Of a DNA stretch of 64,000 nt, positions 37,204-42,020 are shown piece by piece. How positions within the stretch are numbered: the stretch's first letter is position 1; the number at the start of each line of letters is the position of its first letter. The DNA comes from Myxococcales bacterium (GTDB taxonomy: Bacteria; Myxococcota_A; UBA9160; UBA4427), in assembly GCA_012960035.1 (NCBI GenBank), contig DUBZ01000116.1:1-64000 (forward strand). The letters are read 5' to 3'. Below the pieces are notes generated by a model. It made no database searches. It was not told the DNA's origin and saw only the letters and a list, made by a program, of their open reading frames with translations. The position numbers and the translations under genes are program-made.

Positions 37204-38586
37204 ATGGCCTTTGTATTAGTGGTCGACGATGAGATCGGCGTACGCGAATCCCTGCGTATGCTGCTTAAGAGCGAGTTTGACGTCGAAACAAGTCCAGACG
37301 TCGAAACTGCCTTGCGCATCATCGGCGATCGGCTTCCCGACCTCATTATCCTCGACCTCGTGATGCCCGGACGCGGCGGCATCGACTTGCTGCGCGAACT
37401 TCGCGACCGCGGCATGGCCGTACCGGTCGTCGTACTCACCGCCTCCAACACGATCGACGCCGCGGTGGGCGCAATGAAGCTCGGCGCCGCCGACTTCATC
37501 ACCAAACCGTTCGAGGTCGAAGCGCTCCGCATCAAGCTTCGTCAGTTACTTCAACACCGTGAACTCGAGCGCGAGGTTGCGCGCTTGCGCGACGAAGTCG
37601 CGGGGCGTGAGCGCCTGGGCCGCATGACGGGCAAGAGCCCAGTCATGCTCGAACTCTTTCGCACGATTGAACGCATTGCCGACTCAAAGGTCAGTGTCTT
37701 GATCTCGGGCGAAAGCGGCACGGGCAAGGAGTTGGTCGCCCAGGCGATCCACGACGTTGGCCCGCGACACGACAAGCCCTTTATCGCGGTCAATTGCGGC
37801 GCGATTCCCCATGACTTGATGGAGAGCGAATTGTTCGGCCACGAACGCGGCGCCTTCACGGGGGCACACGACCAGCGTATCGGCCGGTTCGAAGCTGCGA
37901 ACGGCGGCACGCTGCTGCTCGACGAGATCGGCGAACTCGACCCGAGCCTTCAGGTCAAGTTACTGCGTGCGCTGCAAGAGAAGAAGATCGAACGCCTGGG
38001 GAACCCCCATTCGATCGACGTAGATTGCCGCATCATCACGGCGACCAACCGCAACCTAGAACGCGAGATCGAAACCGGTCGTTTTCGCAGCGACCTCTTC
38101 TACCGGATCAACGTCATCACGGTCGAACTCCCGCCCCTGCGCGAGCGGCGGGAAGACGTACGCCTGCTCGCCGATACCTTCATCGAGCGAATCGGTAAAG
38201 AAGACGGACGAAAGCTTCACTTCGACGCTACGGCAATCGCCGCCATCGAGCGGTACACGTGGCCCGGCAATGTGCGCGAACTCGAAAACGCCGTCGAACG
38301 CGGGGCAGCGCTCTGCCAAAGCGGTCTGATCCGCCTCGAAGATCTGCCAGATTCGATCGTGTCTTCTGGCCGCAGCGACAGGCTCCGAGAGGAATTACGT
38401 ACCGGTAGCGGGGCGTTTGAAGAAACCGTCGGCAGGTTCGAGTGCGAGCTCTTGCTAGAAGCCCTGGAACGCCAGCGATGGAATCAAACCCGTGCCGCCG
38501 AAGATCTAGGTGTGACCCGACGCGTCCTGAAACTCAAGATGGACCGCTTCGACATCGTCGCCCCGGATATCGAAGCCGGCGAATAG
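37204..38586 (+). CDS. NtrC-family sigma-54 response regulator
   Basis: Complete enhancer-binding activator of 460 residues from ATG 37204. Receiver 1-120: VLVVDDEIGVRESLRMLL, phospho-acceptor in LIILDLVMPGRGG, FITKPFEVEAL. AAA+ 140-370: ISGESGTGKELVAQAIHD (Walker A), FGHERGAFTGAHDQRIGRFE (sigma-54 contact loop intact), GGTLLLDEIGELDPSLQVKL (Walker B) and RYTWPGNVRELENAVERG. Fis-type HTH 415-455: LLLEALERQRWNQTRAAEDL and GVTRRVLKLKMDRF. A perfect sigma-54 promoter and a palindromic candidate enhancer lie directly downstream, so the PilZ operon is its likely target. Confidence 0.95.
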   Translation: MAFVLVVDDEIGVRESLRMLLKSEFDVETSPDVETALRIIGDRLPDLIILDLVMPGRGGIDLLRELRDRGMAVPVVVLTASNTIDAAVGAMKLGAADFITKPFEVEALRIKLRQLLQHRELEREVARLRDEVAGRERLGRMTGKSPVMLELFRTIERIADSKVSVLISGESGTGKELVAQAIHDVGPRHDKPFIAVNCGAIPHDLMESELFGHERGAFTGAHDQRIGRFEAANGGTLLLDEIGELDPSLQVKLLRALQEKKIERLGNPHSIDVDCRIITATNRNLEREIETGRFRSDLFYRINVITVELPPLRERREDVRLLADTFIERIGKEDGRKLHFDATAIAAIERYTWPGNVRELENAVERGAALCQSGLIRLEDLPDSIVSSGRSDRLREELRTGSGAFEETVGRFECELLLEALERQRWNQTRAAEDLGVTRRVLKLKMDRFDIVAPDIEAGE

Positions 38587-38612
38587 GCGCGCGTATCGTC
38601 GCCCCTCCGGGT

Positions 38613-38628
38613 TGTTCGCGCGCGAACA
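38613..38628. promoter_or_regulatory. 16-bp perfect palindrome, candidate enhancer site
   Basis: TGTTCGCGCGCGAACA is fully symmetrical and lies about 200 nt upstream of the -24 element, the usual distance and form for an NtrC-type activator binding site. It starts 27 nt after the stop of the activator gene. No second copy is visible in the window. Confidence 0.6.
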
Positions 38629-38806
38629 GTCCCACCCCCTTGGCGTTCAATTTGGAACAGATCCTCTTTCCTTTTTGTTTTCACTATCTTACGTGAATGC
38701 TGCTCGGGAGCCGTTCGAGATCGAACAAGCCCGCAGGGGAGTTGGCGCGAGCTGTGTTCGACTGGGAGCGAAATTCCCAATTAAAATCAGCTAGTTGAGA
38801 AAGTTT

Positions 38807-38828
38807 TGCCAGCTACTGATAGCTGGCA
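38807..38828. promoter_or_regulatory. Inverted repeat overlapping the -24 element
   Basis: TGCCAGCTA and TAGCTGGCA, separated by CTGA, form perfect 9-bp arms. The right arm contains the first bases of the -24 box (TGGCA). A protein bound here would block sigma-54 polymerase, so this is a candidate repressor operator; alternatively it mirrors the -24 sequence to form a second, divergent -24 half. Confidence 0.55.
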
Positions 38829-38839
38829 CGGCACTTGCT
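38824..38839 (+). promoter_or_regulatory. Perfect sigma-54 promoter of the PilZ operon
   Basis: CTGGCACG-GCAC-TTGCT matches the extended sigma-54 consensus at every conserved position. With the -12 C at 38838, transcription should start near 38850, only about 3 nt before the ATG of the next gene. Confidence 0.85.
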
Positions 38840-38852
38840 TTAGTAAGAGACC

Positions 38853-39164
38853 ATGCAGCAAGTTGAACCTCAAAGCACGCGACAAACCAGCGAACAACGC
38901 GGTGTCGTGCCGGTCGCTGACCTCGAAGTCATCAACCCCACAGGTTTTGCAGCTTGGAAGCCGCGGGCTCCGGAATACGCAGCGGCATCTGCAACTTCCT
39001 CACCAAGCCCTTCGACGTCATTCAAGTTGGAGCCCCAGGTCGTAGGCGTGCTCTGCGAGATCGCTCGAATACCAGGACGAACTGAATCCCCTAGCGAAGC
39101 TCTGAACGCGTACGTGTTCGCAAACCGCTTCGACCAGAATGTAAACGGAGAGTTGGCCCGATGA
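38853..39164 (+). CDS. Unknown small protein, first gene of the sigma-54 PilZ operon
   Basis: A 103-residue protein I do not recognise. It has a Gln/Thr-rich N-terminus (QQVEPQSTRQTSEQRG), a Ser/Pro/Ala linker ([12 protein letters not shown]) and a short ordered C-terminus (VVGVLCEIARIPGRTESPSE, then ALNAYVFANRF). No signal peptide or membrane segment. The case for a real gene is the sigma-54 promoter just before it and the ATGA overlap with the PilZ gene. No Shine-Dalgarno is present, in line with a nearly leaderless mRNA. Possibly a partner or regulator of the PilZ protein. Confidence 0.65.
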   Translation: MQQVEPQSTRQTSEQRGVVPVADLEVINPTGFAAWKPRAPEYAAASATSSPSPSTSFKLEPQVVGVLCEIARIPGRTESPSEALNAYVFANRFDQNVNGELAR

Positions 39165-39577
39165 GTGCTGTTCAAAGTAGTGCCATGCAGATCGACACCA
39201 CATCTATCAATCCGAGCACCCTACAGAGCCGCGAATCGCGCCGCGACGGACTTCGCCAAGTCGGCTTCAGCCCTTTCCCGCGTGTGAGTCTCGACGCCGG
39301 TCAGACCTTGGGTCTGCTCATCAACGAATCTGACTCGGGCTTCTGCATGATTGCAAGCGACCGCGAAGAGGTCGGAGACCTGCTTCGCGTGATGGTGCGC
39401 GGTCTTCACGGCCACACGTCGCGCGACGTTGTCGCACGCGTGGTCTGGAGCGAAGCCACCGACGCAGGACGCTGCCGCATGGGCCTCAAGCTCCTGCGCG
39501 AGAATCAGCCGCAAATGGTACGCATGCGATACGAGAGTGAGCACGCGTTAGATCGATTCGCGACGAACCGAGGCTAA
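39161..39577 (+). CDS. PilZ-like domain protein
   Basis: A 138-residue protein resembling a single PilZ domain: an N-terminal ESRRDGLRQVGFSPFPRVSL in place of the RxxxR segment, a central beta region (GQTLGLLINESDSGFCMIAS where DxSxxG would be) and RDVVARVVWSEATDAGRCRM-GLKLL. The c-di-GMP residues are only partly matched: R-R is present, DSDSGF is close to D/NxSxxG. GGAGAG precedes the start, and the gene is coupled to the upstream gene by ATGA. Role inferred: sigma-54-controlled second-messenger output, possibly without c-di-GMP binding. Confidence 0.7.
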   Translation: MSAVQSSAMQIDTTSINPSTLQSRESRRDGLRQVGFSPFPRVSLDAGQTLGLLINESDSGFCMIASDREEVGDLLRVMVRGLHGHTSRDVVARVVWSEATDAGRCRMGLKLLRENQPQMVRMRYESEHALDRFATNRG

Positions 39578-39625
39578 GCCTCGCGGAAACCGCGCAACGG
39601 GGGACCGAAAGGAAAGACAGTTCTA

Positions 39626-39832
39626 TGGGGTCCGGCGATCATCCGGGGGGGTGTCGCCGGTTCCCAAACTGACGAATGGGGCCGGTGGCAATAAATCCGG
39701 GGGGGTAGTCACCGGCTCCCGTTTTCAGATCACATCCATCAGGACGAACCCGAACTCAGGGTCCGCGAGATGACGAGAGTTAAATTAGAGGGCTGGCAGC
39801 ATTAAATCCGGGGGGGTTGCTGCCGGCTCTTT
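39626..39832 (+). repeat. Three covarying hairpins with an identical seven-G loop
   Basis: Hairpin 1: arms CCGGCGA/TCGCCGG at 39632-39638 and 39654-39660. Hairpin 2: arms at 39678-39689 and 39708-39719, core CCGGTG/CACCGG. Hairpin 3: arms at 39787-39801 and 39818-39832, core CTGGCAGCA/TGCTGCCGG. All three loops contain ATCCGGGGGGGT, and hairpins 2 and 3 share AAATCCGGGGGGGT. Stem positions 5 and 6 change in both arms together (C-G/T-A/C-G and G-C/G-C/A-T). This argues for selection on RNA structure. A smaller hairpin (CGCGG-AAA-CCGCG) lies at 39582-39594. The array follows the PilZ gene, so it may be a 3' UTR RNA. Confidence 0.85.
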
Positions 39833-39838
39833 TTTTTC
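39787..39838 (+). terminator. Intrinsic terminator formed by the third seven-G hairpin
   Basis: The third hairpin has about 15 pairs including G-T wobbles and is followed by eight T residues (39830-39837). It is the likely end of the PilZ operon transcript, placing the first two hairpins inside that RNA. Confidence 0.8.
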
Positions 39839-39979
39839 GGTCGTGCTTTTCGAGTTTGAAATGCGGGGCGAATCAACTTCAACTCTGATGTCCGGCCGCG
39901 GACACAATTGGGAGTACTGGCAGCAAACGCGGGTCCCTTCGCGGGGTTCTTGATCTCGCTGCTGCTAGAATTGCCATCC

Positions 39980-40381
39980 ATGTTTGGAATCGGACCGCTC
40001 GAACTCACTGTGATCCTTGTTGTTGCCCTGCTCGTAATGGGCCCGAAGAAGTTGCCCGAACTCGCTCGCACCCTCGGGCGCGGACTTGCGGAATTTCGTC
40101 GGGCTTCGAACGACCTCAAGCGCAGCATCGATATGGACCTCGAAGACCACAAGATCGAGCCGCCAGCGGGCCCCGCTCAAACCGGCGTGTCCCACGTTGC
40201 GTCAAAGAAAGGCCAAGAGGTCGGCAGCAACACGAAGACGAAAGCCGAGCCACACGGCGAAGATCCGCTTGATCCGAAGCCTGAGTCCGAATTAGAAACC
40301 GAACCCGCGGACGACGACCCCATCCCTGCAGCGAGCCCCGCGCCCGCCGTAAAGCGCGAGACGGAACCGCCGGTTGACTGA
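39980..40381 (+). CDS. tatB: Sec-independent translocase protein TatB (TatA/B family)
   Basis: A 133-residue TatA/TatB protein from ATG 39980 ([20 protein letters not shown]). One N-terminal membrane helix is followed by an amphipathic helix ([20 protein letters not shown]) and an acidic, Pro-rich tail. The Gly-Pro hinge and the length fit TatB; with only one such gene here it could serve both roles. It overlaps tatC by 8 nt. Confidence 0.92.
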
Positions 40382-41135
40382 TCACGAGCTACCCATCACC
40401 GATCACCTCGCTGAGCTGCGCTCGCGCATTTCCTGGGTGTTGGGCTGTTGGTTTATCGCGGCCGGGCTTTCATACGCGTGGGCGGAACAGATCTTTGCCT
40501 TCTTGCTCGAACCCGCACTCGCGGCCCTTGGCGACGGCGCTTCGCTGCAATCGATCGCGCCCACCGAGATCTTCTTCACCTACGTGAAGTGCGCCCTGCT
40601 CGCGGGCTTCATCTTTTCATCGCCGATGTTCTTCTGGCAGGGTTGGGCCTTCATCGCACCAGGCCTCTATGACGGTGAGAAACGCCACGTCGTTCCGTTT
40701 GCGTTTTTGTCGAGCATCCTCTTTGCCACCGGATCGTTCTTCGGATACACGATCGTTTTCCCGATCATCTTTGAATTCTTCAACAGCTTCAGCAACGAGA
40801 TGGTGATTTCGGCATGGACGATGCGCGAAGTCTTTTCGCTCACGACCCGACTCTTCCTCGCGTTTGGCGTTGCGTTCGAGTTGCCACTGTTGGTCTTCTT
40901 CCTCGCGATGGCGGGCATCGTCACCGCGAAGCAGTTGCTTTCCTTCACTCCGTACGCCGTACTCTGTGTTTTCGTCGCCGCCGCGCTCCTGACGCCACCC
41001 GATGTCGTAAGCCAGTTCTTCCTTGCCATCCCAATGATCGGCTTGTATCTGGCCGGAGTGGGGGCCGCGTTCTTGGTAGCCAAGCGGAAGAAACATGATG
41101 AAGACGAGACGAGCGAGTTGACCCCCGAGGACTGA
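40374..41135 (+). CDS. tatC: Sec-independent translocase protein TatC
   Basis: Six-helix TatC, the signal-peptide receptor of the Tat system. The 253-residue protein begins at TTG 40374 inside tatB ([20 protein letters not shown]) and includes the conserved periplasmic and cytoplasmic loops ([60 protein letters not shown]). The C-terminus is charged ([17 protein letters not shown]). Confidence 0.97.
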
Positions 41136-41246
41136 GCGAATGTCTCGTCTGGGGCGCGTCTAGAACCGCCCCGAAGATCACAAGTTCCCGCTACCGTGAG
41201 CGGCCGCATCTGCGGCGCCGTTTTCTAACCAAAAGGACGACCCCCC

Positions 41247-42020
41247 ATGACCGACCTCATTCGCAGCGAGCGCAAAGGCGCGATCGCGATCTTGACCCTG
41301 GACCGGCCCAAGACCCTCAACGCCTTGGACGAGTCGCTCCTCCTCGCGCTCGAAGCCGCGGTGCACGAAGTTGCGATCGACAAAAGCGTTCGCGCGGTGA
41401 TCGTGACCGGCGAAGGCCGCGCGTTTGCGGCGGGAGCGGACATCGAAGCGATGAGTCACATGAGCGCGACCGAAGCCGAAGCGTTCAGTCGCCTCGGACA
41501 CCGCGCATTTTCGGCACTCGAAGAATTGGCGGTCCCCAGCATCGCTGCGGTAAACGGTTTTGCGCTCGGCGGTGGATGCGAACTCGCGATGTCGTGCGAC
41601 TGGATTTACGCGTCAACCAAGGCGCGCTTCGGCCAGCCCGAAGTCAAGCTCGGCTTGATCCCCGGCTTCGGCGGAACGAGCCGCCTGGTTCGCCGCGTGG
41701 GTGTCGCGTGGGCGAAAGAGCTGGCGTGCTCGGGCCAAAACCTGGTTGCCGAAGAAGCGCAACGCATCGGGCTCGCAAACCGCATCTTCGAACCCGACGA
41801 CCTTCTGCCCAAGACCCTCGAGGCCGCCGAAGCCGTCGCAGCCGCGGGACCACACGCAGTGCGGTCCGCAAAGCGGGTGATTCAACAAGGGCAGGATGCA
41901 GATGTTCGCACCGCCCACGCGCTGGAGCAGAACGCGTTCGGGTTGGCGTTCTCACGACCGGAGAAGACCGAAGGCGTTGGGGCGTTCTTGGAAAAGCGCG
42001 ATCCGACATTCGAGGATTGA
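41247..42020 (+). CDS. Enoyl-CoA hydratase/isomerase family protein
   Basis: Crotonase-fold enzyme of 257 residues. Oxyanion-hole segments are AFAAGADIEAM and AVNGFALGGGCELAMSCDW; the catalytic Glu pair is in PEVKLGLIPGFGGTSRLVR. It is very like short-chain enoyl-CoA hydratase (crotonase/PaaF type). AAAGGA precedes the ATG. No other beta-oxidation gene is adjacent, so the pathway cannot be stated. Confidence 0.94.
   Translation: MTDLIRSERKGAIAILTLDRPKTLNALDESLLLALEAAVHEVAIDKSVRAVIVTGEGRAFAAGADIEAMSHMSATEAEAFSRLGHRAFSALEELAVPSIAAVNGFALGGGCELAMSCDWIYASTKARFGQPEVKLGLIPGFGGTSRLVRRVGVAWAKELACSGQNLVAEEAQRIGLANRIFEPDDLLPKTLEAAEAVAAAGPHAVRSAKRVIQQGQDADVRTAHALEQNAFGLAFSRPEKTEGVGAFLEKRDPTFED

Follow-up and report, generated by a model that had tools for sequence, protein, structure and literature searches.

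A conserved G-loop RNA hairpin behind a PilZ-domain gene in a family of uncultured Myxococcota

The locus and its three hairpins

The window, which here means the whole 64,000-nt stretch of DNA analysed, carries on its + strand, between a PilZ-domain gene and tatA-tatC, an array of three hairpins (Table 1). The PilZ protein contains the segments RESRR and NESDSG, which fit the c-di-GMP motifs RxxxR and NxSxxG. In relatives, a response regulator with an HD-GYP-like motif sits between a sigma-54 regulator and the PilZ gene. Positions 38853-39164 of the window hold a 103-aa ORF that has no Pfam match and whose start and C-terminal part match the response regulator of the congener G003 (E 0.009 and 4e-6); judging from these two alignments, the ORF looks like an internally deleted remnant of an HD-GYP-like response regulator.

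Table 1. Features of the hairpin locus and its flanking genes (positions in the window)
Feature	Positions	Strand	Sequence or structure	Evidence or remark
PilZ-domain gene, 138 aa	39161-39577	+		Pfam PF07238, E 5.7e-7
Leader motif	39599-39613	+	GGGGGACCGAAAGG	conserved within the genus
Hairpin 1	39626-39666	+	UGGGG-U-CCGGCGA-U-[CAUCC GGGG GGGUG]-UCGCCGG-U-UCCCA	fold; covariance model R1, 38.5 bits
Hairpin 2	39678-39720	+	stem GGGGCCGGUGGC/GUCACCGGCUCCC, loop AAUAAAUCCGGGGGGGUA	covariance model R1, 66.9 bits
Hairpin 3	39787-39833	+	stem GAGGGCUGGCAGCA/UGCUGCCGGCUCU, loop UUAAAUCCGGGGGGG	covariance model R1, 68.0 bits
Conserved loop 12-mer, copies 1, 2 and 3	39641-39652, 39695-39706, 39806-39817	+	ATCCGGGGGGGT	
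Extended -10-like box	39966-39980	+	TGCTAGAAT	immediately upstream of the tatA start codon (39980)
tatA	39980-40381	+		Pfam PF02416; conserved downstream neighbour
tatC	40374-41135	+		Pfam PF00902; conserved downstream neighbour

A preliminary description of this DNA had reported three hairpins with a shared loop behind the PilZ gene, and each copy of the 12-mer indeed lies in a strong hairpin. Minimum free energies range from -28 to -29.7 kcal/mol (z -3.4 to -5.2 relative to dinucleotide shuffles), none of 200 shuffles per hairpin folds as well, and the 268-nt region as a whole reaches a fold z of -6.0 (+ strand) or -4.0 (- strand). Hairpin 1 is a short form without the 5′ internal loop that appears in the predicted folds of hairpins 2 and 3, and hairpin 3 is trailed by a U8 tract (39830-39837). 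The same description assigned 12 constant bases to the loop. These are identical in all three copies, but in the predicted fold AUCC can pair with GGGU to leave a GGGG tetraloop, so that not all of them are unpaired. The 12-mer is confined to these three sites in the whole 5.5-Mb genome; it is absent from the reverse strand, and a reversed control pattern likewise gave no match. We rejected a coding explanation: the hairpins are spaced by 54 and 111 in the window and by about 55 in its congeners, and a reading frame is therefore not kept.

The extra run of five Gs at 39599-39603, noted earlier and confirmed here, belongs within the genus to a short conserved motif, GGGGGACCGAAA. The window's leader can, by prediction for the window, pair with UUUCGGUC (39835-39842) and thereby close the whole array. 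Likewise, GACCGAAAGG (39603-39612) and CTTTTTTTTCGGTC (39833-39842) form a possible pairing that encloses all three hairpins, and in genomes of genus g9 a similar GATCGGGG/CCCCGATC stem surrounds a single hairpin.

Conservation within the family

By its named records, the family to which the window belongs falls among metagenome assemblies of uncultured Myxococcota or "Deltaproteobacteria". Three congeneric genomes (G001-G003) carry three hairpins each at the same place as in the window; hairpins 2 and 3 show ATCCGGGGGGGT, and the orthologue of hairpin 1 has a shorter loop, ATTCGGGGGGGT. A first covariance model, built from seven of the window and congener hairpins, finds matches in 20 of the 30 family genomes, representing 7 of its 12 genera. 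In every matching genome the hairpin adjoins the single PilZ homologue on the same contig, and the model has no match elsewhere in these 20 genomes. Copies per locus number one to three, with three in the four congeneric genomes including the window and only one in five genomes of genus g11, in G006, G011, G017 and others, and likewise in genera g9 and g4.

A PilZ homologue was detected in 28 of the 30 genomes, and several that escape the model nonetheless carry something similar beside it: a divergent G-loop hairpin occupies the same place in G004, G005, G015 and G022, more divergent G-run hairpins were recognised by eye at the PilZ locus of G007 and G016, and G012 gives a weak match there. 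G009 has the PilZ gene with no recognisable G-loop hairpin. In G020 and G008 the search found no PilZ homologue and, likewise, no hairpin before tatA. Genus g10 (L043, L044, L045, L050 and L052) has beside PilZ a second hairpin type with the loop ATCGAATCGGGGGC, which precedes the AACCGGGGGGGTT type in four of the five loci.

Beyond the family, a second covariance model of 28 sequences, run against genomes from the order (80), the class (91) and the phylum (237), found no convincing member, in searches that score only some candidates per genome and may let weak members escape. The exception is G038, of family f10, where the corresponding position holds a weak hairpin with ATCTGGGGGGGT. Other weak matches (in G079, G073, G032 and G216) lack PilZ or tat neighbours; the G216 match, a U8 terminator that has a G run, we take as chance. 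The 12-mer also turns up in relatives, 20 of 61 genomes carrying it; at other places it lies mostly in coding-like sequence without a hairpin, which marks these as chance occurrences. In the sister family f7 (L138, L141 and L142), a run of six or seven Gs followed by UG precedes a GC-rich hairpin between PilZ and tatA, the G run lying before rather than inside the hairpin; this could be a divergent version of the element.

Selection on stem, strand and loop

Among the three copies of the window alone, the covariation claimed in the preliminary description is thin; with 28 hairpins from 19 loci it is beyond doubt. Standard pairs fill 98% of the stem pair cells in this set, which was aligned via the covariance model and hence in a way that favours the structure. 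Both sides have changed at 12 of the 13 stem pairs, in 58 cells as against 11.4 in shuffles, and none of 500 shuffles reaches any of the five observed measures. When the partner strand is slid by one to three columns, only 34-58% of the cells remain paired, and a manual alignment of orthologous hairpins from the genus displays the same covariation with zero broken pairs. The + strand has 35 G-U pairs and 2 A-C pairs, an excess indicating that selection acts on an RNA with the orientation of PilZ; neither a DNA palindrome nor an RNA of the opposite strand would yield such a ratio.

While the stems diverge, the loop retains a run of five to seven Gs, most often in the form A-[AUC]-[CU]-[CU]-GGGGGGG-U. 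Pairing between the four bases that precede the G run and the end of that run is possible in most members and leaves a G tetraloop. This inner stem is nearly invariant, with one replacement of G-U by A-U (in G014), and the NYCC/GGGU pairing is a prediction for which there is too little variation to serve as proof. At the level of sequence comparison, selection for pairing in the long stem and for sequence in the G-rich loop are both evident. Conserved position, compensatory stems and constant loop bear out the earlier view of a selected RNA as opposed to a simple duplication, and the covariance-model search then proposed did recover copies in relatives, at a conserved position and with compensated stems. 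That the hairpins exist as a selected RNA is, in our judgement, close to certain.

The parent transcript and the tatA promoter

The hairpins often start 4-36 nt past the PilZ stop codon, and the PilZ gene is probably their parent transcript. Downstream, 49 of 58 distinct tatA loci have a TAnnnT box at most 22 nt from the start codon, usually as GCTAGANT, as compared with 1.7% expected by chance. Read from these boxes, transcription of tatA most likely begins at its start codon or close to it, downstream of the hairpins; because the box adjoins the start codon, the hairpins stand upstream of the tatA promoter. Across the order, tatA appears to be near-leaderless, expressed from an extended -10 box a few bases upstream of its start. 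Given the position behind PilZ and the separate tatA promoter, the element is best read as part of the PilZ 3′ UTR. The region upstream of the array yielded no conserved promoter or processing site.

Relation to known RNAs

Searches against Rfam 15 gave no match, whether in the window at gathering thresholds, within 38580-40000 at E values up to 5, or in the loci of ten relatives, and no description of the element was found among the papers searched; the earlier impression that it belongs to no described RNA family holds. To our knowledge, structured RNAs of uncultured Myxococcota have been little described. Covariation this strong, together with absence from Rfam, makes for a clean new family entry: the element forms a new RNA family, though one of a familiar general type.

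Its closest working analogues are CcsR1-4 and mini-ykkC. CcsR1-4 of Rhodobacter sphaeroides are four homologous RNAs processed from the ccaF1 3′ UTR (PMC8307010). The present hairpins resemble them in being tandem, homologous and co-oriented behind a small protein gene. CcsR loops, however, carry a C/U-rich anti-Shine-Dalgarno-like motif, whereas the + strand loops here are G-rich and have no such motif. They differ also in their PilZ parent gene and Myxococcota clade, and in being known from sequence, so that processing would be a matter of analogy. Mini-ykkC comprises small repeated hairpins with conserved ACGR terminal loops suggestive of protein binding, as a potential 5′ UTR element of other genes (PMC2864571). 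The likeness lies in the small repeated hairpins with conserved terminal loops; the hairpins described here, in contrast, are 3′ of their gene and have NYCCGGGGGGGU in place of ACGR. In RNAs of the CsrB/RsmZ type, several hairpins offer a single partner a short loop motif that they share, and CsrA sites require GGA in the loop. Repeated hairpins with a shared loop motif are found here as well, but ATCCGGGGGGGT and its variants almost all lack GGA (the exceptions are in G014, G022 and g2), and the array has no stand-alone promoter that we could find.

What the hairpins may do

That the loop letters are conserved across genera, and that a locus holds between one and three copies, suggests recognition of the loop by a partner. 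The most likely reading is a 3′-UTR RNA element of the PilZ mRNA whose G-rich loop serves a trans-acting partner. In its fuller form, as a recognition element that is perhaps released as small RNAs, we hold this reading tentatively and give it somewhat less than an even chance. The long stem would cap the PilZ message at its 3′ end and present NYCC-GGGG-GGGU as a recognition site to an RNA-binding protein or a C-rich RNA, and additional hairpin copies would offer more such sites. The 3′ end may also be freed as a small RNA, by analogy with CcsR1-4 behind ccaF1 in Rhodobacter. Expression of a c-di-GMP effector operon might thereby be tied to a second, post-transcriptional circuit. For the PilZ protein as the partner, as had been proposed, co-occurrence is the one point in favour, and we regard the idea as weak.

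The main rival, somewhat unlikely in our view yet weightier than any other, is a plain terminator or 3′ stabiliser: hairpins that do no more than terminate and protect the PilZ transcript, with an unbound G loop that aids folding or polymerase pausing. They lie where such hairpins would be expected, after the PilZ stop codon and before the promoter that tatA has of its own; strong GC-rich hairpins behind a gene are what intrinsic terminators look like, hairpin 3 of the window with its U8 is the one terminator-like match, and pyrimidine-rich tails are frequent among the hairpins. Even so, most of the 28 hairpins are followed by no U tract; terminator loop sequences are not usually conserved across genera, and termination needs no two or three copies.

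It is less probable that the array acts as a trans-acting small RNA, targeting C-rich ribosome-binding sites by pairing through its G-rich loops, or as a sponge that mimics a Shine-Dalgarno sequence. GGGGGGU is complementary to ACCCCCC (41240-41246) just before the start codon of an enoyl-CoA hydratase gene downstream of tatC, where the window reads ACCCCCCATG (the start site as a whole being AAGGACGACCCCCCATG, at 41233-41249). Similar C runs occur at this gene in G001 and G002, and the genome has 24 start sites of the form AGGA-CCCCC-ATG. The run has shrunk to CCC in G003, however, and among the 80 genomes of the order that were counted such sites are equally frequent in families that lack the hairpin, so that the C-rich targets once proposed bear no sign of co-evolution. 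Throughout the order, the spacer between AGGA and ATG is commonly C-rich. Of the suggested pairing with the anti-Shine-Dalgarno sequence, a GGGGGGU/ACCUCC duplex can be drawn, but it requires a G-U at its centre, and GGAGG is absent from all the loops.

Cis-regulation of tatA and tatC, through read-through from the PilZ operon or at the tatA promoter, seems to us quite improbable. In nearly all genomes tatA is the gene after the array, and the hairpin abuts its -10 box in some, such as G038, yet a -10 box by the start codon leaves the hairpins outside the tatA transcript, and the PilZ-less G020 and G008 retain the tatA promoter without a hairpin. The two are also apart in G010, in which the hairpin lies 14 nt past PilZ, the remaining contig (about 380 nt) is without tatA, and tatA sits on a separate contig behind about 480 nt of repeat-rich sequence, the adjacency of the two contigs not being established. 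Long GC-rich repeats are present in G010 (L051 and L135) both behind the PilZ hairpin and ahead of tatA.

An RNA G-quadruplex formed by the array loops and the leader G5, which had been raised on the strength of three G7 runs and one G5 run in the window, is very improbable, because many genomes, those of g11, g9, g4 and other genera among them, retain a single hairpin and so do not provide four G tracts in one RNA, and NYCC can pair with half of each G run in the fold. A functionless chance or mobile repeat (REP- or MITE-like), which two or three similar adjacent copies might bring to mind, can hardly be credited given one conserved locus per genome with no copies elsewhere, strong compensatory change and strand-specific G-U pairs.

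Implications

Returning to the recognition element, its fixed position after a PilZ gene whose c-di-GMP motifs are intact, and the HD-GYP-type regulator in the operon of relatives, point to RNA-level control around c-di-GMP signalling. A G-run loop is unusual as a conserved recognition site, and identification of its partner would bring to light an RNA-binding protein not yet known or else a new strategy of base-pairing. A bolder idea, which we consider unlikely at present, is that the hairpins represent a new class of riboregulator, in which a G-run tetraloop in the 3′ UTR of a c-di-GMP effector captures a protein or C-rich RNAs. If true, such a riboregulator would couple c-di-GMP signalling to post-transcriptional control in Myxococcota.
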